Shown here: positions 3,871 to 58,650 of the stretch, in pieces
Layout of the letters: every line of letters starts with the position of its first letter
Numbering within the stretch: position 1 is the stretch's first letter
Assembly: GCA_902782465.1 (NCBI GenBank)
Contig: CACZNH010000007.1
Location: forward strand, 135,255 to 199,254
Direction: 5' to 3'
Source: an uncultured Bacteroidales bacterium
GTDB lineage: Bacteria > Bacteroidota > Bacteroidia > Bacteroidales > Muribaculaceae
DNA: 64,000 nt
Notes under the pieces: model-generated
The model's input: only the letters and a program-made list of their open reading frames with translations
Database searches by the model: none
Told to the model about the DNA's origin: nothing
Position numbers and translations under genes: made by a program

Positions 3871-3978
3871 TTAAGTTTTTAGTCTTAAGTTTTTAGTTTT
3901 AAGTAATAATACCATTGCCTGTAAATTTTCAGGCGAGAGAAATCATACTTACAACTAAAAACTTAAAACTTACAACTA
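3871..3978. repeat. intergenic heptad-repeat hairpin, core type B
   Basis: The left arm (3871-3905) repeats the word TTAAGTTTTTAG and its variants. The right arm (about 3945-3978) repeats AAAACTT/ACAACT and is its reverse complement. Between them is a core with inverted GCCT (3917-3920) and AGGC (3931-3934), flanked by AATAATACC and AATCATACTT. The same core occurs at 32344-32364 and 36246-36266. The element fills the gap between ftsZ and serS, and the A-rich arm runs up to the serS start. Confidence 0.9.
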
Positions 3979-3992
3979 TAAAAAACTGAAAA

Positions 3993-5264
3993 ATGCTGAC
4001 TTTACAACTCATTAACCAGGATCCCGAGGAGGTGATTCGTCGCCTTGCCGTCAAGCAGTTTGACGCCCATGAGCCCATCATGCGCATCGTGGAACTGGAT
4101 AAGCAGCGCCGTGCACTGCAGAAACAACGCGACGACAACGCCGCTGTACTCAATAAGATGGCCGCACAAATCGGTGCCCTCATGAAGCAGGGCAACCGCG
4201 ACGAGGCCGAGAAGGTCAAGGCTCAGGTGGCCGACCTCAAGACCGCCAACAAGGAGATTGACGATAACTTGACTGCCGCTCAGGACGAGATTACCGAAAT
4301 CCTGCTCAGCGTCCCCAACGTTCCTTACAGCGGCGTGCCCGAGGGCCGCACTGCCGAGGACAACGTGGTTGAGAAGACTGGCGGCAAGATGCCCGAACTG
4401 CCCGAGGATGCACTTCCCCACTGGGACCTGGCCAAGAAATACAATCTCATCGACTTTGACCTGGGTGTGAAGATCACCGGCGCGGGATTCCCCGTGTACG
4501 TTGGCAAGGGCGCACGACTGCAGCGTGCCCTGGTACAGTTCTTCCTCGACGAGGCCAGCAAGGCCGGATATGTGGAGATTGAGCCGCCCTTCGTGGTCAA
4601 CGAGGCATCGGGACTTGGAACGGGTCAGTTGCCCGACAAGGAGGGCCAGATGTACCACTGCCAGGTGGACAATTTCTACCTCATCCCCACTGCCGAGGTG
4701 CCCGTGACCAACATGTACCGCGACGTCATCATCCCGCAGGAGGAACTGCCCAAGAAGAACTGCGCCTTCTCGGCATGCTTCCGTCGTGAGGCAGGTTCCT
4801 ATGGCAAGGACGTGCGCGGCTTGAACCGCCTGCATCAGTTCGACAAGGTGGAAATCGTGCGCATCGAGAAGCCTGAAGATTCCTATGCCGCCCTCGAGGA
4901 GATGAAAGACCATGTGCAGGGACTGCTCGAGAAGCTGGAACTGCCGTGGCACATCCTGCGCCTGTGCGGTGGCGACATGAGCTTCACCAGTGCCATCACC
5001 TTCGACTTCGAGGTGTGGTCGGCCGCCCAGCAGCGCTGGCTCGAGGTGAGCAGCGTCTCCAACTTCGAGACCTATCAGGCCAACCGCCTCAAGTGCCGCT
5101 ACCGTGGCGATGACAAGAAGACGCATCTGTGCCACACCCTCAACGGTTCGGCACTGGCGCTGCCCCGCATCGTCGCTGCCCTGCTCGAGAACAACCAGAC
5201 GCCTGAGGGCATCCGCATCCCCGCCGCCCTGCAGCGTTACACCGGTTTCGACATCATCGACTGA
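3993..5264 (+). CDS. serS: seryl-tRNA synthetase
   Basis: This 423-residue class II aminoacyl-tRNA synthetase charges tRNA-Ser in the cytoplasm. Residues 1-105 form the charged, coiled-coil tRNA-binding arm. The catalytic domain shows motif 2 (ACFRREAGSYGKDVRGLNR, about residues 260-280) and motif 3 (NGSALALPRIVAALLENNQ, about 386-404). The length is normal. It has no obvious promoter of its own; the A-rich arm of the hairpin repeat forms its leader. Confidence 0.97.
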   Translation: MLTLQLINQDPEEVIRRLAVKQFDAHEPIMRIVELDKQRRALQKQRDDNAAVLNKMAAQIGALMKQGNRDEAEKVKAQVADLKTANKEIDDNLTAAQDEITEILLSVPNVPYSGVPEGRTAEDNVVEKTGGKMPELPEDALPHWDLAKKYNLIDFDLGVKITGAGFPVYVGKGARLQRALVQFFLDEASKAGYVEIEPPFVVNEASGLGTGQLPDKEGQMYHCQVDNFYLIPTAEVPVTNMYRDVIIPQEELPKKNCAFSACFRREAGSYGKDVRGLNRLHQFDKVEIVRIEKPEDSYAALEEMKDHVQGLLEKLELPWHILRLCGGDMSFTSAITFDFEVWSAAQQRWLEVSSVSNFETYQANRLKCRYRGDDKKTHLCHTLNGSALALPRIVAALLENNQTPEGIRIPAALQRYTGFDIID

Positions 5265-5270
5265 TTTTCA

Positions 5271-5364
5271 TTTAGGCTTTAGGCATTAGGCTTTAGGCGT
5301 TAGGGGGCATCCGCTTTGTAACGTTTAAAACCTAAAACCTAAAGCCTAAAACCTAAAGCCTAAA
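5271..5364. repeat. intergenic heptad-repeat hairpin, core type A
   Basis: The left arm (5271-5304) consists of TTTAGGC/ATTAGGC/GTTAGGG words. The right arm (about 5324-5364) consists of CCTAAAA/CCTAAAG words and pairs with it. The spacer holds GGGGGCATCCGC (5303-5314), a core also found at 11227, 13591, 18950, 42417 and, inverted, at 30743. The right arm ends two bases before the next start codon. Confidence 0.9.
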
Positions 5365-5365
5365 A

Positions 5366-6370
5366 ATGCGTAAAGCCTGGCTCGATAACATCAAGTTGAT
5401 AGCAATGTTTCTCGTGGTGGTGTATCACACGCCGCCACGTTATGACAATGCCCACGAGGCAGCGCTTTTCAATATGGGTGCCCCGGTGTTCTTCTTTGCT
5501 GCGGGCTACCTGTTCGATATCGCCAGGCAGCGCGGTTTCCTCAGCTTCCTGCGTCACCGCGCACAGCAGATTCTGGTGCCTTACACCACCTTTTTCATCA
5601 TTTTCTATGCCCTGTGGCTTGTCGTGGGACGCCGCATGGCGGGTCCCGAGGAGATGGAAATCGGCCTGATGACACCGCTGCGTCAATTCATTGAGGGCAC
5701 GCCCGACGTGGTGCTGGGACCTTTCTGGTTCCTGGCCGCCCTGTTTACCATGCAGCTCATTTATTACCCCATCAGGCGGTTTCTGTCGGGCTGTTGGCCC
5801 CTGGCCGTCGCCCTGCTGTTGAGCCTCTCGCTGCTTGTCATGCCCGACTTGCCGTGGTTCCGCCTGTGGAACCTTGACAAGGCCCTGTTGTACATGCCCA
5901 TCTATGCCATGGGCAACTGCTGCCGCCCGCTTGTGGAGCGGTTTGACTTCTCAGGACCATCCCGCTCGTTGTTGTGGATGGTGCTGGCGGCGCTGGGGCT
6001 GGGATTCCTGATTGTCGCACCTCTTCAAATCGACCGTAGTGTCGCCTACGTGTTGGCGCCCGTGGCGGTCATGCTCACCCTGCCGCTGTACACCGCTGTG
6101 TGCCGGTGGCTGGAGAGGTGCAGCCCTGCCCTGTGCCGTGTGGCTCGCGTGGTGGCGGTGGGCAGCATCACCTACCTGGCGTTGCAGAACTACCTTATCG
6201 GCATCATCAAGATGATGATTGCCAAGTTGATGGGCGCCCAGGTGTGGGACGGCAATCTGGTGCTCAAGGTGGCCGTGGCGCTGGCCGTAATGGTCATCCT
6301 CTATCCCATAGCCCTGTTTATTGACCGCCGCATGCCATGGCTACTAGGCAAGAAGAAATCCACATTATAA
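5366..6370 (+). CDS. membrane acyltransferase, acyltransferase-3 type
   Basis: This is a 334-residue polytopic membrane protein with about ten hydrophobic segments. It opens with the pattern of acyltransferase-3 (OafA/fucose-O-acetylase-like) enzymes: RKAWLDNIKLIAMFLVVVYH, where the final His at about residue 22 is the conserved catalytic-type residue. A later conserved-looking stretch, APVFFFAAGYLF, also fits. Such proteins move acetyl or other acyl groups onto sugars of surface glycans across the inner membrane. The substrate cannot be deduced; no glycan-synthesis genes are adjacent. A strong hairpin terminator follows. Confidence 0.8.
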   Translation: MRKAWLDNIKLIAMFLVVVYHTPPRYDNAHEAALFNMGAPVFFFAAGYLFDIARQRGFLSFLRHRAQQILVPYTTFFIIFYALWLVVGRRMAGPEEMEIGLMTPLRQFIEGTPDVVLGPFWFLAALFTMQLIYYPIRRFLSGCWPLAVALLLSLSLLVMPDLPWFRLWNLDKALLYMPIYAMGNCCRPLVERFDFSGPSRSLLWMVLAALGLGFLIVAPLQIDRSVAYVLAPVAVMLTLPLYTAVCRWLERCSPALCRVARVVAVGSITYLALQNYLIGIIKMMIAKLMGAQVWDGNLVLKVAVALAVMVILYPIALFIDRRMPWLLGKKKSTL

Positions 6371-6379
6371 TATGATATG

Positions 6380-6410
6380 AAGTATCGCAGGTTCCCAACT
6401 TGCGATACTT
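6380..6410 (+). terminator. intrinsic terminator after the acyltransferase gene
   Basis: AAGTATCGCAGGTT (6380-6393) pairs with AACTTGCGATACTT (6397-6410) around a CCC loop, giving a 14-bp stem with a single G-T pair. It is followed by GTTTAT. It lies 10 bp past the stop codon. Confidence 0.7.
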
Positions 6411-6525
6411 GTTTATGGTGGATGGGTGAAGCGGTTTTTCGTAAAATTGAATTATTTTAAGAGTTTTATCTAAGGTAAATGTCTATTATTTAACGATATT
6501 TTAGCAAAAACTGACAGAAAATATG

Positions 6526-6533
6526 TAACTTTG
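6526..6533 (+). promoter_or_regulatory. Bacteroidetes -7 element (TAACTTTG) of the first M6 protease gene
   Basis: TAACTTTG matches the TAnnTTTG -7 box of the primary sigma factor in Bacteroidetes. The -33 region about 20 bp upstream reads TTAG, not a good TTTG. Expected transcription start is near 6540, giving a 30-nt leader. Confidence 0.55.
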
Positions 6534-6570
6534 CGGGCTTTACCAATTAGAAACCAATATTGATTAGATA

Positions 6571-8787: not shown

Positions 8788-8812
8788 TCCCATCTCTGGA
8801 TGACAGATAATC

Positions 8813-8939: not shown

Positions 8940-8985
8940 TGTTTATTACATAACCAACTTTTAGTGTAATTTTATCTGAAGCAAC

Positions 8986-11193: not shown

Positions 11194-11200
11194 CGCTGCG

Positions 11201-11284
11201 TTTAGGCATTGGGCTTTAGGCGTTAGGTGGCATCCACTCACTAAAACCTAACACCTAAAGCCTAAAGCCTAAAGCCTAACGCCT
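11201..11284. repeat. intergenic heptad-repeat hairpin, core type A
   Basis: The left arm 11201-11227 (TTTAGGCATTGGGC words), the core GGTGGCATCCAC (11226-11237) and the longer right arm 11241-11284 (CCTAACA/CCTAAAG words) are of the same class as at 5271, 13560 and 18913. It lies between the second and third M6 protease genes. Confidence 0.9.
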
Positions 11285-11309
11285 ATTATTATTAACTATA
11301 AACTGATAA

Positions 11310-13562
11310 TTGGTTATGAAAAACTGTTTTGTACTCTTCGTTTTGGGATTGCTGTGCCTGAGCGCACGTGCCGTCCCTGCCGACCCGACTCCTGGCCAGA
11401 TCACCCAGCCCGACGGGTCCAAGCTCACCGTAGTGTTGCATGGTGACGAGTTCTTTAACTACCAGACCACCCTCGACGGATACACCGTGGTCAAGAATGA
11501 GGCAGGTTTTTACACCTATGCCCGCCTTGACGGCACCCGCATGGTGGCCAGCAATTATGTAGCCCATGACGAGGCCAATCGTACAGCTCTTGACTTTGCT
11601 GCTCTTGCCGGCCTGCCCAAGGGCCTGAAAAGCCCTGCCATGGTTCAGCGTGGCAAGCAGCTGTTGAACAAGCGCAATGCCTTGCTGCGCGGCGTGGGTC
11701 ATGGTGGCCACATGGATTATGACAAGTTCCGTGGCTTGATTATCCTCATCAACTACACCGACAGGAACTTTAACGATTACGTACCCTCCAACTACACGCC
11801 CGTTGACTTCTACGAGGCTATGGTCAACAGCCATGACTACCAGGGTTTCACACTTCCTTTCGGCACCAAGATTGACGCGATGGGCAGTGTTCGTGACTTC
11901 TATTATGATAACTCGTTCCATCAGTTTGACCCGCACTTCGATATCCTGGGCCCGGTGGATGTACCCTTTGCCTGCACCGATGCTCATCAGTTCAAGTGTG
12001 ACTCCATCTTCTTTGCCGCCCTTGAGGCCCTTGACGATGAGGTGGACTTCAGCCAGTATGACACCGATGAGGACGGTACTGCCGACATGGTGTTCTTCCT
12101 GGTTGCCGGTCACGGCTCGGATGTCACTGCCAACGACAGGAACTACCTGTGGCCCCACATGAACAACTTTGTGGAATCGCCCGTGCTTGATGGCGTGAAC
12201 TTCAGCCTCTATGCCTGCTCGACCAACATGACAGGCGAGGAGGATGAGTACCGCATCAATTATAATAATGTGGCAGGCATCGGCACCTTCTGCCATGAGT
12301 TCAGCCACGTGCTGGGTTTGCCTGACCTCTATGATACCGACAGCGAGGGCAGTGGTGGCATCAACCGCCAGCATCCCATGACCTGGTCCATCATGGCCAG
12401 CGGTTTCAGGAGCAATAACGGCCGCAATCCTGCGGGCTATAGCCTGTATGAGCGCTATGCATTGGGCTTTGCACAGCCCACCCTCATCGAGGGTGAGGGC
12501 ACCATCAGTGTGCCTGCCCTGGAAAAGAGCAACATGGGTTACCGCATGAACACCGCCAACGACGGCGAGTTCTTTCTCATCGAGAACCGCCAGCGCATCA
12601 AGTGGGACAAGAACCTGGCAGGCCCTGGCATGCTGATTTTCCGTGTGGACTCGACCAATGTCGATGTCTGGGAGAACAACCTTGTCAATGCTGACCCCAG
12701 CCACATGTACTATGAGTTGCTCCGCGCCAACTTCAGCGGGTTGAGCGACAGTTACAATGACCCCTTCCCCGGTGTTTCGGGTGTCACTTCCATCACCAAC
12801 ATCTCGCAGCCCAACCTGCGCACATGGGACGGCAAGATGAGCCCCTTTGCCTTTGTCAACATCACCGAGGCCGACAGCATCATCACCTTTGACGTGGTGA
12901 AGGACAATTCCAAGTTCTCCATCGAGGACTTTGAGAAGATGCCCGTGGGTGCTAGCCTCAACGAGCGGGGTGTTGCGGGTGTCTATGCCAATTGGGATTT
13001 CTATGGCTGTGCCGTTGTGGACACTGCCCAGGTGGGCGAGGGTCACGTTGTAGCCATGAAAAACGGTAGTTATTTCAACACCGTCGAGAACCTGAACAAG
13101 ATTCCTCTTGTTGTACGTTTCACCATCTACAATCCCACGAGCTCCGGCGTGATGATTACGCCGCAGTACTCCAAGGACAACGGCAAGCGCTGGCGTGGCA
13201 TGGATGCCTACCCCTATGATTACTATGTTGCCGCTGGTGCTACGGCTTCGGCTACCATTATCACGCTGCCCACCGACGTGCCCATCATGCTGCGCCTCAA
13301 GCAGACCCAGGGCAGCAGCTCGGAATATTGCTTCATCGACAATATTGAGGTGTGCTACGAGAACACTTGGACGCCCGAGTATATCAGGGGTGACGTCGAT
13401 GGTGACGGTAGCGTGGGCATCGGCGACGTAGTGGCCCTCATTGACTATCTGCTGAACGATGGCGCTATCAGTATCAATCTGCTGGCTGCCGATATGGATG
13501 GCGACGGCAACATCACGATTGGTGACGTGAGCGACCTTGACGATATGCTGCTGCAACTTTAG
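11310..13562 (+). CDS. secreted M6-family metalloprotease with dockerin-like C-terminus
   Basis: At 750 residues, it is the third tandem M6 paralogue. Some upstream codons remain open, but the signal peptide MKNCFVLFVLGLLCLSARA suggests that the ATG at 11316 is the true start, two codons inside the longest frame. The propeptide repeats the PDGSKLTVVLHGDEFF pattern. The zinc motif is HEFSHVLGLPDLYD from His329. Residues 694-750 are dockerin-like but diverged (GDVDGDGSVGIGDVVALI; ADMDGDGNITIGDVSDL), closer to the tail of the C10 protease than to the other two M6 proteins. The TAG stop is supplied by the first base pairs of a heptad repeat. Confidence 0.9.
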   Translation: MVMKNCFVLFVLGLLCLSARAVPADPTPGQITQPDGSKLTVVLHGDEFFNYQTTLDGYTVVKNEAGFYTYARLDGTRMVASNYVAHDEANRTALDFAALAGLPKGLKSPAMVQRGKQLLNKRNALLRGVGHGGHMDYDKFRGLIILINYTDRNFNDYVPSNYTPVDFYEAMVNSHDYQGFTLPFGTKIDAMGSVRDFYYDNSFHQFDPHFDILGPVDVPFACTDAHQFKCDSIFFAALEALDDEVDFSQYDTDEDGTADMVFFLVAGHGSDVTANDRNYLWPHMNNFVESPVLDGVNFSLYACSTNMTGEEDEYRINYNNVAGIGTFCHEFSHVLGLPDLYDTDSEGSGGINRQHPMTWSIMASGFRSNNGRNPAGYSLYERYALGFAQPTLIEGEGTISVPALEKSNMGYRMNTANDGEFFLIENRQRIKWDKNLAGPGMLIFRVDSTNVDVWENNLVNADPSHMYYELLRANFSGLSDSYNDPFPGVSGVTSITNISQPNLRTWDGKMSPFAFVNITEADSIITFDVVKDNSKFSIEDFEKMPVGASLNERGVAGVYANWDFYGCAVVDTAQVGEGHVVAMKNGSYFNTVENLNKIPLVVRFTIYNPTSSGVMITPQYSKDNGKRWRGMDAYPYDYYVAAGATASATIITLPTDVPIMLRLKQTQGSSSEYCFIDNIEVCYENTWTPEYIRGDVDGDGSVGIGDVVALIDYLLNDGAISINLLAADMDGDGNITIGDVSDLDDMLLQL

Positions 13563-13625
13563 GCTTTAGGCATTAGGCGTTAGGGGTTAAGTGGCATCCA
13601 CATCCCCTAAAACCGATGCCTACCG
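13560..13625. repeat. heptad-repeat element, core type A, decayed right arm
   Basis: The left arm TAGGCTTTAGGCATTAGGC begins inside the stop codon of the preceding gene. The core is the perfect palindrome GTGGCATCCAC (13591-13601). The right arm (CCCCTAAAACC...GCCTACC) is short and degenerate. The rest of the 426-bp gap up to 13988 holds two promoters and a hairpin, listed separately. Confidence 0.85.
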
Positions 13626-17423: not shown

Positions 17424-17458
17424 GCTGAAAACTGACAACTCACAACTGACAACTGAAG
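17424..17458. repeat. single heptad arm (AAAACTG/ACAACTG words) 5' of a start codon
   Basis: About five copies of a 7-nt word (GAAAACT, GACAACT, CACAACT) end 5 bp before the ATG at 17463. No pairing arm is present. The A-rich strand is the leader strand of the downstream gene. Confidence 0.75.
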
Positions 17459-17462
17459 AATT

Positions 17463-18908
17463 ATGAACGACAACAATCACAACAATAAGAGCGGCAAGAC
17501 GTTGAGTCGCCGCACCTTCCTCAAGGCCCTGGGACTGGGTACCGCCACCGCCGCTGCTCCCGCCATCGTGAGCTGCGCCACTGGTGATGACAAGAAAAAA
17601 TCCCCACAGGAACCGCCTGTGGGCAAGATGACCTATCGCGAGAACCCCAAGACCCACGAGAAGGTTTCCATCCTGGGCTACGGCATGATGCGCTTGCCCG
17701 CCACCAACGGCAAGCCTTTCGGGCGCGACAATGACGCCGAGATTGACCAGGAGATGGTCAACAAGCAGATAGACTACGCCATCGAGCACGGCGTGAACTA
17801 CTTTGACACGTCGCCCGCCTATAGCAAGGGCCTGAGCGAGCGTGCCACGGGCATTGCCCTGAGCCGCCACAAACGCGACGAGTACTTCATCGCCACCAAG
17901 CTCTCCAACTTCGATCCCGAGACCTGGCCACGCGAAGTGAGCATCGAGATGTTCCAGAATTCGCTCAAGGAACTGCAGGTGGATTACATCGATTACCTGC
18001 TGCTGCACTCCATCGGTGGCGGCACTGGCGAGGAGGCCATGGAACTGTTCAGGCAGCGATACATCTACAACGGCATTCTCGACTACCTCATGGAGCAGCG
18101 CGAGAAGGGCATTATCCGCAACCTGGGATTCTCCTATCATGGCGAAATTGCCGTGTTTGACTACCTGCTGGCCAACCATGACAAGTACCACTGGGACTTT
18201 GTGCAGATTGAGCTCAATTACCTGGACTGGAAGCACGCCAAGGAAATCAACGAGGAAAACACCAATGCCGAGTACCTGTATGCCGAGCTGGACAAGCGCG
18301 GCATCCCTGCCGTCATCATGGAACCGCTGCTGGGCGGACGACTGGCCTCGCTGCCCACGCCGCTGGCTCGCAAAATCATGGCCCGTGACCCCGAGCGCTC
18401 GGTGGCCTCCTGGGCCTTCCGCTTTGCCGGCTCCTTCCCGCGCGTGCTCACGGTGCTGAGCGGCATGACCTATATGGAGCACCTCAAGGAGAATCTGTGC
18501 ACCTATTGCCCGCTGGAGGAGTTGAACGACGAGGATAAGGAATTCCTCTACGGCATCGCCGAGGAGATTGTGGGCTACAACACCATCCCTTGTAACGACT
18601 GCAAGTACTGCATGCCGTGCCCCTATGGCATCGACATCCCTGGCGTTCTCACCCATTACAACAAGTGTATCGCCGAGGGTAACCTCACGCGCGACCGCAA
18701 GGACCCCGACTATGCCCGTGCCCGCCGTGCCTTCCTCATCGGCTATGACCGCAGCGTGCCCAAGTTGCGGCAGGCCGACCACTGCATCGGCTGTGGCCAG
18801 TGTGTGAGCCATTGCCCGCAGCGCATCGAGATTCCGCGCGAAATGCAACGCATCAATAACTACGTCGAGGCCCTGAAGCGCAACATCGACCGCGGCCTTG
18901 ACGCGTAA
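17463..18908 (+). CDS. aldo/keto reductase with C-terminal 4Fe-4S ferredoxin domain
   Basis: This is a 481-residue protein. The N-terminus has a twin-arginine-like export signal (SRRTFLKALGLG, residues 15-26) followed by an Ala-rich stretch and a Cys at about 39, suggesting Tat export, perhaps as a lipoprotein. The aldo/keto reductase barrel shows YFDTSPAYSKGLSE (Asp/Tyr), ATKLSNF (Lys) and LLHSIGG (His), the expected catalytic set. The C-terminal 110 residues carry the clusters CNDCKYCMPCPYG and CIGCGQCVSHCP, as in iron-sulfur aldo/keto reductases. It is co-directional with the polyferredoxin gene. The substrate is unknown. Confidence 0.88.
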   Translation: MNDNNHNNKSGKTLSRRTFLKALGLGTATAAAPAIVSCATGDDKKKSPQEPPVGKMTYRENPKTHEKVSILGYGMMRLPATNGKPFGRDNDAEIDQEMVNKQIDYAIEHGVNYFDTSPAYSKGLSERATGIALSRHKRDEYFIATKLSNFDPETWPREVSIEMFQNSLKELQVDYIDYLLLHSIGGGTGEEAMELFRQRYIYNGILDYLMEQREKGIIRNLGFSYHGEIAVFDYLLANHDKYHWDFVQIELNYLDWKHAKEINEENTNAEYLYAELDKRGIPAVIMEPLLGGRLASLPTPLARKIMARDPERSVASWAFRFAGSFPRVLTVLSGMTYMEHLKENLCTYCPLEELNDEDKEFLYGIAEEIVGYNTIPCNDCKYCMPCPYGIDIPGVLTHYNKCIAEGNLTRDRKDPDYARARRAFLIGYDRSVPKLRQADHCIGCGQCVSHCPQRIEIPREMQRINNYVEALKRNIDRGLDA

Positions 18909-18912
18909 AAAT

Positions 18913-19871: not shown

Positions 19872-19900
19872 CCTTATCAAACAACCTCTTTTTAGCCAAA

Positions 19901-19974
19901 CAACTTGAACAACGATAAACAACACCAACAACAAATGATAAAGTTATTCCTGTTGTTGTTTGTTGTTCAAGTTG
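19901..19974. repeat. intergenic hairpin of CAAC/GTTG words
   Basis: The perfect 13-bp inverted repeat CAACTTGAACAAC (19901-19913) and GTTGTTCAAGTTG (19962-19974) is extended inward by ACAACACCAACAACA against TGTTGTTGTTTGTTG. It follows the PhzF-like gene by 30 bp and may act as a terminator. It belongs to the same general class of word-built hairpins but uses a different word. Confidence 0.75.
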
Positions 19975-20065
19975 TTGATGGTGTATAGTTTATTGTGAAA
20001 ATACTTGAAAAAGTGTTACTGAATATAAAATAATTTGGATTTTGTGTGTTAAAATTGCTCAGAGG

Positions 20066-23271: not shown

Positions 23272-25188
23272 ATGAAACAGATTAAATTTTTCGCATTATT
23301 GATGCTGGTTGGCCTGCTGTCGGTGAGCTGCAACGACATGCTCGACGATAACATCAATCCCGACAGGGCCCATGATATCGAGGCCAAGAACGGTCTGCCG
23401 GTTGTCATCTACTATGCCCAGCAGATTGTCTATGACCATAGTGAATACTACGCCTACTTCTCGCAGATGCTCACCACGGGCGGCAAGAGCTCGGTGGGTG
23501 CCTACAGTTACAAGTGCGAGTGGGAGATGCTGACGATGAACCGCCACCCGATGTGGCGCCGCCACTTCTATGACATCGGTAAGAACACCGTCAACCTCAT
23601 CAACAACTCCCAGGCTATCAATTCGCCCAATTATGAGCTCATCGGCCGCACCATCAAGCTGATGTCCACCCAGTTGACGACCGATGCCTTTGGCGATATC
23701 CCCCGCAGCGAGGCTTATCTGAGCATCGCTCCCACCTACGACACCCAGGCCTCGATTTACGCCTGGATGATGCAGGAGTGCGACGACCTCATCAAGATGT
23801 ATGAGGATCCTGCGGTAATCAATAATCCCGACAACCAGGAAATTACCGTCAAGGAGGACCGCGTCTATGCCGGCGACCTGGAGCGCTGGAAAGGCCTGGT
23901 GCTGGCTGTCAAGGCACGCCTGCTGCTGCGCAACATCCCCAATGTGGACCGCAGCCCCGCCATGTGCCAGAAGATTGTTGACGCTGCCGATGCCGCCATC
24001 AACCAGTGGCGCAAGGGCGACGTCTTTGACTATCAGGGCAGCCGCGAGGCGTGGTTCGGCAACGAGCCCCGCTACTACTGGGACGGCGGCACGGGAACGC
24101 AGAATGCCGTGTGGAGCGTTGCCCAGCCCGTCATCAACTCGTGGGAGTCGCGTGGCAACCTCTTGGGCAGCGCCATCCCCAGCAAGTTCTTCATGGTTGA
24201 CCTTCTGGGTATCAGCAAGCCCGACAACGAGATGACCTGCGGCATGTTTACCGCCGAGGGCCAGCACGACGGCTTTGCCAACGACCCGCGTTGCGGACTG
24301 CTGATGATTGCCCGCACGGGTCCCGCCAGTGCTTCATCGACCAGCGACCGCATCAAGATGCGTTACCTGGAGAACAACATCGGTATGGGTACCTCTTACA
24401 AGATTGCCAACTATCCCAACCTGTACATGGGAGCCTACGCCGGAGCAGCTGACGCCTATAACCCCATCTTCACGATGGAGGAGCTTTACTTCATCAAGGC
24501 CGAGGCCCTCTACTGGATGGGCAACAAGACCGAGGCTTGCGCCCTCGCTAAGGAAGCCACGCAGTGGAACATCCAGCGTCATCTGGACGCCTTCCTGCGC
24601 CTCTATCCCAACGAGAACTATAACGAGAAGACCGACAACAAGTATCCCGGCAACTCGCTGGCTGGCGGCAAGCCCGGCTATCAGCCTGCCGAATACTGGT
24701 TTGGCCAGATTGCCGCGTTCCTCAACAACGAGGATTACTACAGCGGCACCAAGGTGCAGGTTCACAAGGTGACCGACCGCGGCAACAGGCACTGGTTCTT
24801 CAATCCCAGCGAATTCTCGTTGAGCGACCTGATGCAGCAAAAGTACATCGCCATGTACCTGCAGCCCGAGCAGTGGACCGACATGCGCCGTTACCACTAC
24901 AGCAACAACCGCAACCACTACGGCATCGGTGACAACCAGGAAATCGTCTATCCGACCCTGCGCAGGCCCTACAACCTCTATGCAGCCTACTGGATTGACG
25001 GCCTGACCGAGGAGCAGAAGGAGAACACCTGGATCCAGCGCCTCAACTACGATACCGAGACCGAGGAAAAGTACAACCGCGGTGAGCTCGAGCGCCTGGG
25101 CGCTTACAAGAACTACAAGTGGCTCCAGGAACCCATGATTTGGGCCCACAAGTACGGTGAAATCACCTCACTGACAACTGAAAACTGA
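23272..25188 (+). CDS. SusD/RagB-family outer-membrane lipoprotein
   Basis: This 638-residue surface lipoprotein acts as the lid and ligand-binding partner of the SusC pore. The lipobox is at LLSVSC (Cys22). TPR-like helices characteristic of the family appear at ERWKGLVLAVKARLLLRNIPN (first 20 residues diagnostic) and MEELYFIKAEALYWMGNKT. The C-terminus contains QKYIAMYLQPEQWTDMRRY, typical of the family. The last codons (TTEN and the stop) are contributed by a TGACAACTGAAAACT heptad repeat that runs across the stop codon. Confidence 0.92.
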   Translation: MKQIKFFALLMLVGLLSVSCNDMLDDNINPDRAHDIEAKNGLPVVIYYAQQIVYDHSEYYAYFSQMLTTGGKSSVGAYSYKCEWEMLTMNRHPMWRRHFYDIGKNTVNLINNSQAINSPNYELIGRTIKLMSTQLTTDAFGDIPRSEAYLSIAPTYDTQASIYAWMMQECDDLIKMYEDPAVINNPDNQEITVKEDRVYAGDLERWKGLVLAVKARLLLRNIPNVDRSPAMCQKIVDAADAAINQWRKGDVFDYQGSREAWFGNEPRYYWDGGTGTQNAVWSVAQPVINSWESRGNLLGSAIPSKFFMVDLLGISKPDNEMTCGMFTAEGQHDGFANDPRCGLLMIARTGPASASSTSDRIKMRYLENNIGMGTSYKIANYPNLYMGAYAGAADAYNPIFTMEELYFIKAEALYWMGNKTEACALAKEATQWNIQRHLDAFLRLYPNENYNEKTDNKYPGNSLAGGKPGYQPAEYWFGQIAAFLNNEDYYSGTKVQVHKVTDRGNRHWFFNPSEFSLSDLMQQKYIAMYLQPEQWTDMRRYHYSNNRNHYGIGDNQEIVYPTLRRPYNLYAAYWIDGLTEEQKENTWIQRLNYDTETEEKYNRGELERLGAYKNYKWLQEPMIWAHKYGEITSLTTEN

Positions 25189-25204
25189 CAACTGAAAACT
25201 CAAG
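25171..25204. repeat. single heptad arm overlapping the susD stop codon
   Basis: Four words (TGACAAC/TGAAAAC type) run from the last codons of susD through its TGA stop to 7 bp before the next ATG. The repeat therefore encodes the C-terminal residues of the SusD protein. Confidence 0.8.
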
Positions 25205-25210
25205 AAGAAT

Positions 25211-30713: not shown

Positions 30714-30718
30714 GTTTC

Positions 30719-30785
30719 AAGTCCTTAGTCCCTAGTTAGTTTGCGGATGCCAACTAAGAACTAAGAACTAAGGACTAGAAACTGA
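30719..30785. repeat. intergenic heptad-repeat hairpin, core type A inverted
   Basis: The left arm 30719-30742 (AGTCCTTAGTCCCTAGTTAG) and right arm 30752-30785 (CTAAGAA/CTAAGGA words) surround GCGGATGCC (30743-30751). This is the reverse complement of the GGCATCCGC core seen in five other elements. Confidence 0.88.
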
Positions 30786-30793
30786 AAATAGAT

Positions 30794-30824
30794 TTTGAAT
30801 TGTCCGTTTTTTTTCGTTACTTTG
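30794..30824 (+). promoter_or_regulatory. probable Bacteroidetes promoter of the 459-residue dockerin protein gene
   Basis: TTTG (30794-30797), a 19-bp spacer, and TTACTTTG (30817-30824), one mismatch from TAnnTTTG. The resulting leader of about 85 nt contains the single heptad arm at 30841-30890. Confidence 0.5.
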
Positions 30825-30840
30825 TCAATTCAAGCTATAG

Positions 30841-30890
30841 CAACTAACTAAGGACTAAAAACTAAGGATTAAGGACTAAAAACTAAGAAT
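30841..30890. repeat. single heptad arm (CTAAGGA/CTAAAAA words)
   Basis: About six 7-nt words of the CTAAGGA, CTAAAAA and CTAAGGAT kind, without a pairing arm on this side, end 27 bp before the ATG at 30917. They read as A-rich in the leader strand. Confidence 0.8.
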
Positions 30891-32296: not shown

Positions 32297-32302
32297 AAAC
32301 TA

Positions 32303-32430
32303 GTTGTAAGTTTTAAGTTTTTAGTTGTAAGTAATAATACCATCGCCTATAAACCTTTCAGGCGACAGTAATCATACTTAAAACTTAAAACTTACAACTG
32401 AAAACTGAAAACTGAAAACTGAAAACTGAA
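32303..32430. repeat. intergenic heptad-repeat hairpin, core type B, with AAAACTG extension
   Basis: The left arm 32303-32332 (AGTTGTAAGTTTTAAG words) is followed by the core CGCCT (32344-32348) with an 11-nt loop and AGGCG (32360-32364). The right arm 32375-32400 (AAAACTT words) then switches to five AAAACTG words that run into the ATG at 32432. Two word types are joined in one arm. Confidence 0.9.
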
Positions 32431-32431
32431 A

Positions 32432-36204: not shown

Positions 36205-36302
36205 GTTTTAAGTTGTAAGTTTTAAGTTGTAAGTACGATTACTACCGCCTAAAGAGTATCCAGGCGAAGGTATCATTACTTAAAACTTAAAACTTAAAAC
36301 TC
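36204..36302. repeat. intergenic heptad-repeat hairpin, core type B, between convergent genes
   Basis: The left arm 36204-36234 (GTTTTAAGTTGTAAG words), the core CGCCT (36246-36250), 11 nt, AGGCG (36262-36266), and the right arm 36277-36302 (AAAACTT words) fill the gap. It touches the stop codons of both flanking genes, so a bidirectional terminator role is plausible. Confidence 0.9.
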
Positions 36303-42296: not shown

Positions 42297-42307
42297 AATT
42301 CAAAAAT

Positions 42308-42375
42308 CTCACGCTAAGGTGCAAAGTGGCTAAGTGGAAAATCAGAACTTAGCGGCTTGGCGCCTTAGCGTGAGG
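42308..42375. repeat. hairpin of GCTAAGG words after the lipoprotein operon
   Basis: CTCACGCTAAGGTGC (42308 onward) pairs with GCGCCTTAGCGTGAG (ending 42375), with weaker pairing inside. It uses the same words as the hairpin at 28010-28120. It lies between convergent genes. Confidence 0.85.
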
Positions 42376-42380
42376 TCTCT

Positions 42381-42450
42381 GTTTCTAGTCCTTAGTCTTT
42401 AGTTTCTAGTCCTTAGTTGGCATCCGCTAACAACTAGGGACTAGGAACTT
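42381..42450. repeat. intergenic heptad-repeat hairpin, core type A, between convergent genes
   Basis: The left arm 42381-42417 (TTTCTAGTCCTTAGTC words), the core GTTGGCATCCGC (42416-42427) and the right arm 42429-42450 (CTAGGGA/CTAGGAA words) lie directly behind the GCTAAGG hairpin. Two different word-hairpins thus stand in tandem. Confidence 0.9.
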
Positions 42451-43949: not shown

Positions 43950-43957
43950 TTTATTAG

Positions 43958-44012
43958 TTTTAAGTTTCTAGTTTCTAGTCCTTAGTCCTTAGTTCTTAGT
44001 CCCTAGTTTCTA
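43958..44012. repeat. single heptad arm in the leader of the CoA-transferase gene
   Basis: About seven words of TTTCTAG/TCCTTAG type read on the minus strand as CTAAGGA/CTAGAAA ending in AAAACTAATAAA just before the ATG. There is no second arm. Confidence 0.8.
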
Positions 44013-44030
44013 GTTGATGATTGTATGTTG

Positions 44031-45350: not shown

Positions 45351-45384
45351 ATTATATTGAGTTTTAAGTTTTTATTATTTTAAT

Positions 45385-45422
45385 AAGGTCGTTAAGGTCC
45401 TTAAAGACTTTAAGGTCCTTAA
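45385..45422. repeat. intergenic palindromic repeat of CCTTAA words (9-nt period)
   Basis: Words TTAAGGTCC, TTAAAGACT, TTAAGGTCC follow each other with a 9-nt period and are partly self-complementary (TTAAGGtCCTTAA). It lies between the 3' end of the acetyltransferase gene and the pgi start. Confidence 0.7.
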
Positions 45423-46556: not shown

Positions 46557-46629
46557 ATTGAGTTTAAGTTTGTTTAATGTCAATTATCAGTTCTATAGCA
46601 ACTATAGTATCTATAGCTTCTATAACCTA

Positions 46630-49232: not shown

Positions 49233-49237
49233 ATTAT

Positions 49238-49312
49238 TTTAGTTTTTAGTTTTTAGTTTTAAGTATGATTACTAACGCCTAACACCTAATGCCTAATGCC
49301 TAACACCTAACC
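49238..49312. repeat. chimeric heptad element joining AAAACT and CCTAATG words
   Basis: The left part 49238-49262 is TTTTTAG words; then AAGTATGATTACTAACGCCT is the left half of core B. Instead of the rest of core B come CCTAACA/CCTAATG words (49278-49312), which belong to core A elements. It lies between psuK and psuG. Confidence 0.85.
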
Positions 49313-50815: not shown

Positions 50816-50854
50816 CAGGTTAGATAAGAATTGAACCATAAAACTAAAAATAAT

Positions 50855-51715: not shown

Positions 51716-51769
51716 TTTCTGGAATAGGGTGGATTTCTAGCAAGTCCACTTTTTTATAACACGCAACGA

Positions 51770-52711
51770 ATGAGGATTCTGGGCGAAAACGACCGCCTGC
51801 CGCAGGGCAGCACTGTCGCCACGATTGGTATGTTTGACGGCGTCCATCAGGGACACGCCACACTCGTCGATTTCCTCAAGCGACAGGCCACCGCCCAGGG
51901 TAAGCAGTCCCTGGTCATCACTTTCCTTAGTCATCCGCGTCAGGTATTGCATCCCGACCAACCGTTCAAGCTCATCATGTCACTTGGCGACCGCTTGTCG
52001 CAACTCCAGGCCCTAGATCCCGACCTATTGCTCACGTTGGACTTCACTCCTGAGCTGGCACAACTCGATTCGGCACGGTTCATCGAACTGTTGCGTGACC
52101 GATATGGCGTGACCGAACTGGTGGCGGGCTACAACCACCGTTTCGGACACAACAGGGGAGAGACATTCGGCGACTATTGCCGCCATGGCGAGCAACTGGG
52201 TGTCAAGGTCGTGAAGGCGCCTGAGTATTTAGGACAATACGCGCCCGTGAGCTCGACCATCATCCGCGGACTCATCGCAGCGGGCAGGGTGGTCGATGCC
52301 ATGCATTGCATGGGCAGGCCCCACAGGCTATCGGGCAAAGTGGTACACGGTTTCCACAACGGCAGGGGACTGGGATTCCCCACCGCCAATGTGGGAGAGA
52401 TTGCTACTAATCTGCTCCTTCCGCACAATGGCGCTTATGCCGTGCTGGCGCACGTTGGCGGACGATGCCTGCAAGGCATGACAAACATCGGTTGCCGCCC
52501 CACACTCGACAACGGTCCCCAGCTGAGTATTGAGGTCAATCTGTTTGACTTTGACGACGACATCTACGGCAAGGATATCACGCTGGAATTCATCAGCTTT
52601 CTGCGCCTGGAATTCAAGATGTGCGGACTGGATGAACTCAAACAGCAGCTCACCCTCGACCGCGAAAATGCCCGTCGTCTATTAAACGAATACATAAAGG
52701 CTCAAGGGTGA
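51770..52711 (+). CDS. ribF: bifunctional riboflavin kinase/FAD synthetase
   Basis: This 313-residue enzyme converts riboflavin to FMN and then FAD. The N-terminal nucleotidyltransferase has GMFDGVHQGHATLVDFLKR (HxGH-type motif at about 22-31), and FGHNRGETFGDY and VSSTIIRGLIAAGRVVDA follow. The C-terminal riboflavin kinase domain shows GRGLGFPTANVGE (about 200-212) and GMTNIGCRPTLDNG. Length normal. A single heptad arm separates it from upp. Confidence 0.94.
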   Translation: MRILGENDRLPQGSTVATIGMFDGVHQGHATLVDFLKRQATAQGKQSLVITFLSHPRQVLHPDQPFKLIMSLGDRLSQLQALDPDLLLTLDFTPELAQLDSARFIELLRDRYGVTELVAGYNHRFGHNRGETFGDYCRHGEQLGVKVVKAPEYLGQYAPVSSTIIRGLIAAGRVVDAMHCMGRPHRLSGKVVHGFHNGRGLGFPTANVGEIATNLLLPHNGAYAVLAHVGGRCLQGMTNIGCRPTLDNGPQLSIEVNLFDFDDDIYGKDITLEFISFLRLEFKMCGLDELKQQLTLDRENARRLLNEYIKAQG

Positions 52712-52712
52712 A

Positions 52713-52747
52713 AAACTAACAACTAAGGACTAAAAACTAAAAACTGA
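52713..52747. repeat. single heptad arm between ribF and upp
   Basis: Words CTAACAA, CTAAGGA, CTAAAAA, CTAAAAA, CTGATTA with 7-nt period end 5 bp before the upp ATG; no pairing arm. Confidence 0.8.
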
Positions 52748-52751
52748 TTAT

Positions 52752-53408: not shown

Positions 53409-53460
53409 TAACACTTCAAGGCGAAAGCATCATTACTTAAAACTTAAGACTTACAACTGT
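53409..53460. repeat. half heptad element (right half of core B plus AAAACTT arm)
   Basis: AAGGCGAAAGCATCATTACT followed by AAAACTT/AAGACTT/ACAACT words equals the right half of the elements at 36246 and 32344. No left half is present. It forms the leader of nadB. Confidence 0.85.
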
Positions 53461-53464
53461 AATT

Positions 53465-55057: not shown

Positions 55058-55092
55058 AGTTTAAGCGTGCTTTCGACCGCTGTGGATAAGCT

Positions 55093-55223
55093 GCCGTGTC
55101 ATAATTCAATTGCAAGGATTATAACCGCCCTGCGGGCGGGAAATTAAGCAAATTAATTATAAAATTTTTATTATTATACATATAATAAAGCACGGTTATA
55201 TTACCATGTAGCAATTATGACAC
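55093..55223. repeat. MITE-like element with 11-bp terminal inverted repeats; left 95 bp duplicated at 63813
   Basis: GTGTCATAATT (55096-55106) and AATTATGACAC (55213-55223) are perfect inverted ends. Inside is a GC hairpin CCGCCC-TGC-GGGCGG (55125-55139) and then AT-rich DNA. Bases 55093-55187 recur at 63813-63907 with 93 of 95 identical. It holds no reading frame of note. It opens the 565-bp gene-free gap after nadB. Confidence 0.85.
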
Positions 55224-55228
55224 AGCGT

Positions 55229-55505
55229 CGTGTATGGTGTATGGTGTATTTGCGGGCTGTCGCCCGCGTGTATGGTGGATTTGCGCCTGACGGCGTGAGG
55301 GGCCTTGCCGTGGTGTGGCCGAGTCCCGTTAGGGACGGCAAGATTATAGGCAGGTGGCGGAAGGAGGCCTAGCCGACTGTAACCCCTGCAACAAGTACAG
55401 CCATTATCCCAAGCCCTGAAAGGGCGGCAGAAAAACGGGTGACTGCAACATTCTAGCTATCTTGACGTTTTTTTATTATTACTGTCCGGTAAAACTTTTA
55501 CCGGA
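55229..55505. repeat. gene-free stretch with small palindromes
   Basis: Contains tandem GTGTATGGTG words (55230-55285), the palindromes GTCCCgttaGGGAC (55323-55336) and CCCTgaaAGGG (55414-55424), and the inverted repeat TCCGGTAAAA-C-TTTTACCGGA (55485-55505). The two small palindromes lie about 90 bp apart in GC-rich DNA unlike the AT-rich flanks. I see no credible gene. Confidence 0.65.
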
Positions 55506-55513
55506 TACCGATA

Positions 55514-55546
55514 TAAAAAACAACTACCCGTCATGGTCATGACGGG
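55514..55546 (-). terminator. intrinsic terminator of the secreted protein gene (minus strand)
   Basis: CCCGTCATG (55527-55535) and CATGACGGG (55538-55546) form a 9-bp stem with a 2-nt gap. On the minus strand it is followed by TAGTTGTTTTTTA, a U-rich tail (55514-55526). Confidence 0.75.
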
Positions 55547-55622
55547 CAGCAGTTTGGATGATGTGTGTTTCTCAAATTTAAGGAATACCTAATTATTTAA
55601 AATCTAAACATTTCTCTCAAAT

Positions 55623-56060
55623 TCATCGGTCAAAAGTGCGACTGTAATCATTTTTAATCTGATCTGTCACATCTCCCCAGCTGGGGATTCTGGAGCCATT
55701 CAGGACTCCGTTTTCAAGTCTCCACACGGTGGTGGAGCCTCGTGAGCTCGTTAAGGTAATCACGTAGGTTGCAACTATCGAGAAGTCATGATAGTTAATG
55801 ACGTTGCCATATTCCCTACCGATAATACCCGTCCAGACACAGACCGTTTCCCTGGTGATGGTCACATTGAAGTACTCATTCTCGCTACCCATAACTTCAA
55901 TCAAGCCATCTTCGTTGAATTGAAGCTGCAGAAATTCGGTGAATATTGTCAAGCCACCACGATCCCTGCCAGTAGTCTGGTGGGTCATGTCTGGTCTATC
56001 TTGTGCCATTGCGGTCAAGCCGCAGATGGTTATCATTATTGCGATGTAGAAACGTTTCAT
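55623..56060 (-). CDS. secreted protein of unknown function (145 residues)
   Basis: A signal peptide (MKRFYIAIMITICGLTAMAQ) is followed by a 125-residue beta-rich mature part (FLQLQFNEDGLIEVMGSEN, YVITLTSSRGSTTVWRLENG). No family recognised. It has its own consensus promoter and terminator on the minus strand and lies directly downstream of a TPR regulator gene, with a 204-bp gap between them. Confidence 0.68.
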   Translation of the reverse strand: MKRFYIAIMITICGLTAMAQDRPDMTHQTTGRDRGGLTIFTEFLQLQFNEDGLIEVMGSENEYFNVTITRETVCVWTGIIGREYGNVINYHDFSIVATYVITLTSSRGSTTVWRLENGVLNGSRIPSWGDVTDQIKNDYSRTFDR

Positions 56061-56110
56061 AATTCAGTAAATGTTTAGATTCAACAGTCGATATGTTTAG
56101 ATTTCCGATG

Positions 56111-56142
56111 CAAAATTACAGCCAATATTTGAATTGACCAAA
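56111..56142 (-). promoter_or_regulatory. Bacteroidetes promoter (TTTG-20 bp-TAATTTTG) of the 145-residue secreted protein
   Basis: On the plus strand, CAAAATTA (56111-56118) and CAAA (56139-56142), exactly 20 bp apart; a full consensus on the minus strand. The leader is about 45 nt. Confidence 0.8.
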
Positions 56143-56264
56143 TTTTTTCGTAATACAAGGTGGTTTTATTGTTCTGATAATCAGTGCGTTGAAAATATTT
56201 TTATAATACACATTTTTGGGGCCTCAAAAACAGTGTCAAAAACCGTCATTTTTACGGTTTTTCG

Positions 56265-57944: not shown

Positions 57945-57951
57945 CCGCTTG

Positions 57952-57959
57952 CAAAGATA
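57952..57959 (-). promoter_or_regulatory. Bacteroidetes -7 element (TATCTTTG, minus strand) of the second TPR regulator
   Basis: CAAAGATA on the plus strand, 7 bp before the start codon, with CAA at 57976-57978 giving a short 16-bp spacer. It implies a very short leader. Confidence 0.45.
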
Positions 57960-58095
57960 ATATTTTTTTTCTTTGCAAGCATTTTTTGCGCAATTATTTG
58001 CTGCTGCGGCAGGTAAATAATGTGGCTTGACAGATGATAATAAAAAGCGAAAACGCGATGCAAAAACAACGGTTTCATCGCAGATTTCGGCAACT

Positions 58096-58548
58096 TTATT
58101 CCTTCAGGCGGCTGTCGATGATGATGGTCACGGGGCCGTCGTTGATGAGGCCGACCTGCATCTCGGCGCCGAAGACGCCCTTCTTGGTCGGTTTGCCTAG
58201 CAGGCTGGCCAACTCGTCGCAGTAGGCCTCGTAGAGCGGCACGGCCAGGTCATGGCCAGCGGCGTGGATATAGGAGGGGCGATTGCCCTTCTTGGTCGAG
58301 GCGTTGAGGGTGAACTGGCTCACGGCCAGTACCTCGCCGCCCGCATCGATGATGCTGCGGTTCATCACGCCCTGCTCGTCGTCAAAGATGCGCAGGTTCA
58401 CCGTCTTCTGCGCCAGCCAGCGCATGTCGTCGAGGGTATCTCCCTCACGGACGCCCACCAGCACCATCAGCCCGTGGCCGATGGCGCTGTGCAGCTGTCC
58501 GTCGATGGTGACCGATGCTTGGGTCACCCGTTGTATCACGATTCGCAT
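58096..58548 (-). CDS. dtd: D-aminoacyl-tRNA deacylase
   Basis: This 150-residue enzyme of normal length removes D-amino acids from mischarged tRNA. The active-site motifs are both present: SQFTL (in LAVSQFTLNAST, about residue 77) and the C-terminal NDGPVTI (about 137-143). The N-terminus MRIVIQRVTQASVTIDG is also typical. Monocistronic on the minus strand, with a word-built hairpin upstream. Confidence 0.95.
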   Translation of the reverse strand: MRIVIQRVTQASVTIDGQLHSAIGHGLMVLVGVREGDTLDDMRWLAQKTVNLRIFDDEQGVMNRSIIDAGGEVLAVSQFTLNASTKKGNRPSYIHAAGHDLAVPLYEAYCDELASLLGKPTKKGVFGAEMQVGLINDGPVTIIIDSRLKE

Positions 58549-58566
58549 GATTCAGTCTCTGGTTTT

Positions 58567-58650
58567 AAACTACGAATTACACGAACCTTTAGCTCAATTT
58601 AACGAATATCTGGCTCTTCACAACCAAGATACAAGCGTAATTCGTAGTTT
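58567..58650. repeat. intergenic hairpin of AATTCGTAG words
   Basis: AAACTACGAATTAC (58567-58580) and GTAATTCGTAGTTT (58637-58650) pair perfectly over 14 bp, with the word ACGAA repeated between (CACGAACC, AACGAATA). On the plus strand a T7 tract follows. Both flanking genes are on the minus strand, so it may serve as the terminator of the ABC permease gene or as the leader of dtd. Confidence 0.75.

Follow-up and report, generated by a model that had tools for sequence, protein, structure and literature searches.

A 64,000-nucleotide (nt) stretch from an uncultured Bacteroidales bacterium of the Muribaculaceae, here called the window (positions 135255-199254 of contig 7, G000:C7, in a 3.13-Mb genome of 45 contigs), carries tandem arrays of 7-nt words between its genes, many of them facing a reverse-complementary arm with which they can form a long hairpin. 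The stem that fills one and the same gap differs among related species, some having word families unrelated to each other and some an ordinary terminator-like stem. Word gain or loss separates sister species as well as duplicate copies of a gene end. We read these sequences, with a probability of about one half, as self-expanding intercistronic word arrays, often inverted, that would arise by slippage or template switching, by seeding at gene ends and by copying between loci.

Exchange of stems in fixed gaps

The gap of about 100 nt downstream of serS was compared within the genus. serS was identified by Pfam and found in 99 of 101 congeneric genomes. From these 99 genomes 70 serS loci were taken, and the 37 with the same next gene, an Acyl_transf_3-type gene lying 3' of serS, were used (source genome included); the conserved start of that gene was confirmed in all 37. 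Three gaps were shortened before folding: L045 to 140 nt, L047 to the final 130 nt and L056 to the 110 nt after the stop codon. Every one of the 37 gaps folds into a stem of at least 12 pairs, and 34 have z-scores below −3 (60 shuffles each), the remaining three belonging to family E. Family labels were assigned by eye as follows:

Family A: TTAGGC 7-nt words, 11 species
Family B: CGAATTACG, 9 nt, 9 species
Family C: ACAATAAAT, 9 nt, 10 species
Family D: CGCTAAGG, 8 nt, 3 species
Family E: ordinary AGGCACTGTCCGC..GGGCAGTGCC stem, 4 species

Gaps of type C were listed, unaligned, for nine of the ten species (L047 has an insertion). On the best serS tree, which is poorly resolved, the five families require 17 changes (minimum 4; shuffled mean 21.1; a value as low in 2/200). 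Clear swaps are those of L033 (family C) beside L035 and L036 (B), and of L055 (A) beside L047 (C). A second gap, compared in 13 species, holds terminator-like GAGGGCATGCC..GGCATGCCCTC stems in eight, 7-nt hairpins in four and neither in L082; the 7-nt hairpins, found in the sister pairs L074/L075 and L071/L079, are of two different words. Between the source genome and its congener G084, array gaps are almost all unalignable by eye (29 syntenic gaps; flanking proteins with a mean identity of 86%). Between G050 and G055, the two array gaps align with point changes (26 gaps, 92%).

In more distant congeners the gap downstream of serS holds different words, for example AACCCTA/AACCCTT and GTTGAGA/GTTGAGC (L098, from G009; L122 and L123, from G021 and G087). 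The serS gap of L045 (G068:C15) also contains a palindromic element of about 200 nt with the ends TGAGTTCGATGAAA..TTTCATCGAACTCA, situated within the right arm of a TTAGGC hairpin and flanked on both sides by the direct repeat CTAACACTTAAAG. It looks like a miniature inverted-repeat transposable element (MITE) inserted into a word hairpin.

Gain of arrays and words at gene ends

Filled and empty sites were found at two gaps of the window. After gene 51770-52711 (riboflavin kinase/FAD synthetase) the gap measures 4-21 nt in 27 of 30 loci; the source genome has a 40-nt ACTAAGG array there, and the gap is 66 nt long in L302 and 47 nt in L310. Before gene 17463-18908 (aldo/keto reductase type), 19 loci have gaps of 18-37 nt without an array, and ten carry arrays of one to many words, differing in word, at the stop codon. 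These ten were picked by eye after the sequences had been viewed, and L276, L268 and L291 among them have one or two words. Most often the gene upstream of 17463 has GATTTAA or GATTTAG as its last seven letters, which the arrays carry on in phase, as in GATTTAG GTTTTAG GCTTTAG, GATTTAG TCACTAG TCGCTAG and GATTTAG AGTTTAG TGTTTAG. Its stop codon is TAG in 8/10 array loci versus 2/19 others (p = 4e-4), the window's own locus, with its array at a distance from the stop codon, being excluded from this test. Overall, TAG is the stop codon beside 9/21 arrays versus 79/672 elsewhere (p = 5e-4). Among arrays no more than 6 nt from a stop codon (n = 26, relatives and source genome together), the word agrees in phase with the gene's final 7 nt at a mean of 3.14 of 7 positions, versus 2.41 for other gene ends, and none of 2000 permutations gave a value as high. 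Such in-phase arrays may have been born in place from the gene end, or a donor array may have entered at TTTA homology, converting TAA to TAG; we lean towards a mixture of the two.

Word number differs between close copies. In the same gap G094 has about three words and G095 has one, the two being sisters in the serS tree (98/95), and in G084 left arms of six and of eight words follow duplicated dockerin-like gene ends. Gain and loss of this kind is what a preliminary description of the window had predicted from strand slippage. In G084, three gene ends (L147, L149 and L150) share a dockerin-like coding tail and the hairpin after it; apparently 3' end and hairpin were duplicated as one unit.

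Abundance and placement of the arrays

Array periods were counted in 459,254 bases of the source genome (20 stretches and the window). At 17/21 matches, 55 period-7 arrays were found versus one in a second-order Markov simulation, and each of the other periods from 4 to 13 gave 0-9 arrays. Periods 14 and 21 gave 36 and 28 because they are multiples of 7 and capture largely the same arrays. In the source genome the TTTAGGC pattern had 48 matches versus none for the reversed pattern. Looser scoring gave 63 stretches, with the words TTAGGCN, ACTGAAA/ACTGACA, ACTTAAA, ACTAAGG/ACTAGAA, GCTAAAA, CACTAAT, GTGTATG, CATTAAA and others. TTAGGY, ACTGAMA, ACTARRR, ACTTAMA and GCTAAMA were counted 106, 50, 47, 15 and 10 times in the source-genome sample, versus 1, 0, 0, 0 and 0 in a reversed-sequence control; in G084, ACTTAMA gave 0 versus 2 in that control. 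Seven of nine word or tip patterns occurred 7-106 times (control, 0-6), and the strict family B and family C patterns once and not at all. At least five different 7-nt words are thus in use in the source genome, besides the 8- and 9-nt families. Although the majority of the compared genomes are draft assemblies of many contigs, chance or an assembly artefact is refuted by these counts and by the arrays that separate genomes have at the same gaps; we regard its probability as negligible. Rfam at gathering scores gave no matches in the window, and a search for tRNA and tmRNA found none. Dockerin proteins and a TonB-dependent receptor bearing a carboxypeptidase-like domain suggest a member of the Bacteroidales.

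The 7-nt word arrays and their 8- and 9-nt sister families occupy untranslated gaps that mostly lack a promoter motif. When gap classes were scored at 12/14 matches and period 7, arrays were found in 41/180 tandem, 3/26 convergent and 1/24 divergent gaps of the source genome (45/230 in total) and in 24/414, 2/34 and 4/31 gaps of relatives (30/479 in total). Coding DNA had one array in 348,951 nt of the source genome (runs of N excluded; two otherwise) and none in 709,167 nt of relatives. Stop codons are present in all three frames in 27/30 A-rich and 14/18 T-rich arrays of the source genome's tandem gaps. TAnnTTTG, which we take to be the Bacteroidota promoter −7 box, was found in 5/40 tandem gaps of at least 40 nt with arrays versus 39/91 without in the source genome (p = 6e-4), and in 0/22 versus 86/279 in relatives (p = 8e-4).

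Unpaired arrays are polarized. Those nearer a start codon are A-rich on the sense strand (12/12 in the source genome, 6/9 in relatives) and those nearer a stop codon are T-rich (11/15 and 5/8; p = 1.8e-4 for the source genome, 2.7e-4 pooled), although this class comes from a strict partner test and still includes some arms of poor hairpins.

Shared tips, hybrid hairpins and copying

The tip GGCATCCGC occurs exactly at 14 intergenic and 5 intragenic places of the source-genome sample. By our reading, 12 of the 14 intergenic copies adjoin word arms, of four words (TTAGGCN, AGTCCTT, CAGTTGT and AAGTTTT). With one mismatch allowed it occurs at 19 intergenic versus 174 coding places, so that only exact matches are informative. 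TTAGGC arms carry many different tips. Because the tip GGCATCCGC is common to several words, the words are not independent of one another. Hybrid hairpins, in which a TTAGG arm faces an ACTAAAA/ACTTAAA or ACTAGGG arm, were found in the window (49235-49311) and at L266. In the metagenome-assembled genome RUG13250 (‘uncultured Bacteroidales’), the nearest named relative met, with 80.6% identity over 3.5 kb to a stretch of the source genome, there are two syntenic gaps whose hairpins, about 210 and about 230 nt long, agree in their hybrid arms and in their tip; the source genome has no array there. A strict tip-plus-arm pattern was found in 2/247 genomes family-wide (the source genome and G084).

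The interpretation in the preliminary description was right in part. Different words do follow one plan, as it had noted, but its argument from this against simple copying found no support as it was worded: the shared tip and the same hybrid hairpin at two RUG13250 loci show that copying happens too. Exact inverted duplication of arms was considered and rejected, variable dinucleotides being ordered differently on left and right (nine hairpins, by eye).

Occurrence in other genomes

Period-7 arrays per 100 kb numbered 12.0 in the source genome, 7.3 in G084, 2.4 in G050/G055, 3.0 around serS in 20 congeners, 0.9 in other genera of the family and 1.3 in other families of the phylum, all small samples; E. 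coli K-12 had none in 50 kb. In line with the preliminary description, arrays are spread over the source genome and present in the sampled congeners. TTTAGGC arrays were found in 1/148 genomes of a phylum sample (the source genome), and other period-7 words in other families. Scanning named genomes for four TTTAGGC words gave at least 111 stretches. Among the matches listed, at least 52 are from Bacteroidota, at least 24 from Cyanobacteriota (nearly all Chamaesiphon among the 80 matches listed singly), at least 16 have no phylum label and the rest belong to 12 further named phyla; none lies within an open frame longer than 450 nt. The TTTAGGC arrays thus extend to at least 14 named phyla, where most lack a facing arm. 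Other period-7 words accompany them at some of these loci, for instance ACTGAAA in a myxococcote.

Mechanism and alternative explanations

In the reading that we favour, polymerase slippage in steps of about 7 nt would create and lengthen arrays. Seeding would be by the local gene end or by a copy of an array from elsewhere in the genome, which would enter at a short homology such as TTTA(G). The facing arms would be produced where the strand folds back, or the template is switched, around a short GC tip, GGCATCCGC for example. Selection would purge arrays from coding and promoter DNA, maintain an orientation in which the A-rich strand points to the next start codon, and retain some stem in the slot at the 3' end of a gene, whatever its sequence; arrays would be tolerated in promoterless gaps.

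Several results weigh against this account. The serS tree is mostly unresolved, with 25/34 inner branches open, and well-supported branches alone force 2, 2, 3, 1 and 1 changes for families A, B, C, D and E. Phase continuity into the start codon (24 arrays) was equalled in 310/2000 permutations over 7 nt, which is not significant, and in 26/2000 over 14 nt. Depletion of arrays in the source genome's divergent gaps (1/24) vanishes when relatives are included (pooled p = 0.82), and all four array-bearing divergent gaps of relatives contain TAnnTTTG. Facing CCTAA arrays, by a strict pattern, accompany 13/111 TTTAGGC stretches among the matches listed, so the hairpin form is not general, and slippage alone leaves the recurrence of words across phyla unexplained. 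Inverted repeats were located without giving G-U pairs any preference, and each distinct sequence was counted a single time; the mismatches of 7-nt hairpins then comprised 23 G-U versus 25 A-C (30 different hairpins; modest power). In family B (nine species) 90.5% of cells are paired and four pairs have changed on both sides, and no measure of covariation was clearly above shuffles. A tail with at least five T among the first 8 nt beyond the called stem was found in 4/37 serS gaps (one of family B, three of C, none of A or D); as counting begins beyond that stem, T-runs that take part in pairing can be missed.

It is also possible, but in our view unlikely, that the hairpins are selected RNA devices that end or process transcripts or couple translation, the words being merely a robust stem-builder, with a T-rich arm directly after the stop codon and an A-rich arm directly before the next start. 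Such devices would fit the stems in all 37 serS gaps, the ordinary terminator-like stems in the same slots and the polarity of the source genome's arrays. They would also fit the mismatches of tandem-gap hairpins without 7-nt arrays (n = 71, many of them orthologous copies), which comprise 69 G-U versus 40 A-C (p = 0.007); convergent gaps have 30 versus 29 and divergent gaps 0 versus 8 (7 hairpins). By stem class, these counts suggest sense-RNA selection on ordinary and longer-word stems only, the 7-nt stems giving a null result of modest power. Against RNA devices stand the 7-nt hairpins without a G-U excess, the many single arrays without a partner arm and the few U-rich tails. Polarity in relatives is weak as well (single arrays 6 A:3 T near start codons and 5 T:3 A near stop codons, a class that includes some arms with poor partners; paired arms near start codons 2 T:1 A). 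We likewise doubt that whole MITE-like or repetitive extragenic palindromic (REP)-type hairpins were moved by a transposase acting in trans, such as a Y1 transposase or REP-associated tyrosine transposase (Y1/RAYT), and changed their words later. The exact tip beside word arms, the same hybrid hairpin at two RUG13250 loci, the filled and empty sites after 51770-52711 and before 17463, and five Y1_Tnp matches at four places in the source genome would agree with movement. However, neither constant ends or terminal inverted repeats nor target duplications were seen (by eye, at few filled and empty sites), tip and words are unlinked (one tip accompanies four words, and one word has many tips), and arrays are in phase with the host stop codon. 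The 300-nt flanks of two of the five Y1 matches carry other palindromes and no word arrays, which speaks against an origin of the word hairpins from these transposases.

That the words are sites for a protein, whether a single-strand binder of 6-7 nt (cold shock protein, ribosomal protein S1) or a nucleoid protein such as integration host factor (IHF)/HU, is very improbable. S1, Csp and Csr proteins have been proposed for TAACTGA arrays before start codons (PMC4679880, in its available text), as have IHF/HU for Geobacter repeats (PMC2700814, likewise). At least five 7-nt words besides 8- and 9-nt families, with unrelated words at one site in related species, are unlike a single binding specificity. 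A bolder idea, to which we give little credence, is that an enzyme activity present in many phyla writes words with an intrinsic step of about 7 nt, a property of the enzyme and not mere slippage, and that it seeds gene-end arrays and builds facing arms, the slots selecting any stem. If it were true, structure would be inherited and sequence would not, and unrelated hairpin families would replace each other within a genus. Should a slot preserve a stem but not its sequence, such bacterial 3'-end and intercistronic elements will escape searches by sequence similarity. The genus offers about 100 sequenced species, a conserved gap and five stem families that can stand in for one another, so that the birth, spread, replacement and loss of such stems can be traced at fixed loci.

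Comparison with described repeats

Heptamer arrays are known from single genomes, and their step size, hairpin form and fate are without a settled explanation. Cyanobacterial short tandemly repeated repetitive (STRR) heptanucleotides are dispersed 7-nt tandem repeats, like those described here in another taxon; a hairpin arrangement is not known to belong to their definition. Measured against STRR, the present arrays share the 7-nt tandem unit, the several copies and the dispersed intergenic position, as well as one orientation before the start codon (A-rich in all 12 of the source genome's arrays, in only 6/9 of the relatives'). They do not share the single main word per genome seen in a Beggiatoaceae genome, five words having been counted.

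The preliminary description went too far where it could name no described family that fits, since heptamer arrays and heptad hairpins have been published (PMC4679880, PMC4692102, PMC2700814 and PMC4476775; all comparisons here refer to the available text of the cited papers). TAACTGA heptamers form intergenic tandem arrays in Beggiatoaceae, Cyanobacteria and some Bacteroidetes, and in one genome most of them directly precede start codons; as here, their indels between two close strains are mostly 7-nt steps and their distribution is patchy across phyla (PMC4679880). One word was studied there, with related heptamers rarely repeated in that genome and one inverted pair in 170 sets, unlike the several words, many hairpins and exchange of stems at one site found here. 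The G-rich heptamers of Xanthomonas and Nostoc resemble the present arrays in being over-represented in intergenic DNA, in forming some inverted pairs and in varying in length and sequence between close species (PMC4692102). They are of one G-quadruplex-forming word type, whereas the several words here are mostly without G-tracts. The same paper cites slippage tied to the length of DNA held by the polymerase as a possible cause of heptamers, and also cites Calothrix heptanucleotides. The P6b stem-loops of the Nostoc trnL intron (class I TDNGATT, class II NNTGAGT) are 7-nt-repeat hairpins whose word classes have repeatedly been swapped in one structural slot, but at a single locus within a group I intron (PMC4476775); here there are many intercistronic loci and 7-, 8- and 9-nt families. 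Repeats of Geobacter metallireducens are tandem, 7-9 nt, intergenic and in part intragenic, some being paired on opposite strands; they are regarded as putative regulatory elements or IHF/HU sites, and exchange at orthologous sites is absent from the available text (PMC2700814). The BrickBuilt MITE of Porphyromonas gingivalis is likewise an inverted-repeat element from a Bacteroidetes genome that encloses a tandem repeat, but differs in its 23-nt unit and in its leader and tail with terminal inverted repeats (PMC4596501). REP elements and the hairpins formed by REP doublets (REPINs) are defined by a palindrome of 20-40 nt that is tagged at one end with GTAG or CGTC (PMC3733652). Heptamer arrays, paired tandem repeats and heptad-class replacement at one intron stem are known already. 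Swapping of many words and of 7-, 8- and 9-nt families in fixed slots, also with terminator-like stems, was not found in the open-licence literature searched, so that what looks new is the interchangeable intercistronic hairpin slot.

Elements in the window

Gene ends were taken from a home-made gene caller that had been retrained after a poor first version, and single ends may be wrong. At 12/14 matches, 16 of the 41 called gaps have arrays of period 7, 8 or 9. Weaker, shorter or word-like elements read in other gaps (42297, 19872, 58528 and 53409, and 25168 across a gene end) bring the list to 21, close to the 22 or so of the preliminary description, which had placed them correctly. It had called them mostly hairpins; this applies by our reading to roughly 13 of the 21, others being single arrays (17425, 25168, 43956 and 52712). 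The unequal arms that it gave for 18913 were found at 18911, and they do not mirror each other exactly, the order of their variable dinucleotides being different.

3871..3983, plus strand: hairpin of words ACTTAAA/ACTTACA/ACTAAAA, tip AATAATACCATTGCC..CAGGCGA, immediately 5' of the serS start
5271..5365, plus strand: hairpin of words TTAGGCN/NGCCTAA, tip GGCATCCGC, occupying the serS-acyltransferase gap up to the ATG
11202..11288, plus strand: hairpin of words TTAGGCN, tip GGCATCCAC
13556..13611, plus strand: TTTAGGC array from the stop codon TAG of gene 11316-13562, with a short right arm, tip GGCATCCAC
17425..17457, plus strand: single array ACTGACA/ACTGAAA 5' of a start codon
18911..19025, plus strand: TTAGGCN hairpin, about five words left and nine right, tip GGCATCCGC, terminating at an ATG
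19895..19982, plus strand: hairpin of AACAACTTGAACAAC-like words, loosely periodic only
25168..25205, plus strand: single array ACTGACA/ACTGAAA spanning a gene end, 5' of the next start codon
28012..28120, plus strand: hairpin of 8-nt words CGCTAAGG (family D), then ACTGAAA words
30717..30889, plus strand: ACTAAGG/ACTAAGA hairpin, tip GCGGATGCC (tip inverted), with a second ACTAAGG array downstream
32301..32431, plus strand: AAGTTTT/ACTTAAA hairpin, CGCCT..AGGCGA tip, then an ACTGAAA array to the ATG
36205..36301, unstranded: AAGTTTT/ACTTAAA hairpin filling a convergent gap
42307..42445, unstranded: two hairpins, one of CGCTAAGG (8 nt) and one of AGTCCTT/ACTAGGG with tip GGCATCCGC
43956..44015, minus strand: single array ACTAGAA/ACTAAGG 5' of the start of minus-strand gene 42450-43949
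45384..45422, unstranded: 9-nt words TTAAGGTCC, partly palindromic
46592..46624, minus strand: 9-nt words CTATAGNNN
49235..49311, minus strand: hybrid hairpin, TTAGGCN arm opposite an ACTAAAA/ACTTAAA arm
52712..52751, plus strand: single array ACTAAGG/ACTAAAA filling the gap that is 4-21 nt in 27/30 loci
53418..53459, plus strand: half element, AGGCGA tip half and right arm ACTTAAA
55227..55251, unstranded: GTGTATG array in a long repeat-rich convergent gap
58567..58650, minus strand: family B-like hairpin CTACGAATTACG..GTAATTCGTAG

Other repeats

At L065 (G000:C1, about 5845-6090) a Y1-transposase-like gene has a near-identical long sequence, beginning ATGGTCGAGGCAGAGCCTCGACACGGGGGACCTGTGGG.., on both sides. 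This is the arrangement to be expected where a transposase has a repeat family of its own, and that family bears no relation to the words of the arrays. A long palindromic repeat with GTGTCATAATT.. and CGGGCGGGAAATTA.. pieces, separate from the word hairpins, was found at window 55058-55622, L012 10088-10573, L019 10562-11027, L023 4621-4821 and L277, and seems recurrent in gaps of the source genome and a congener.

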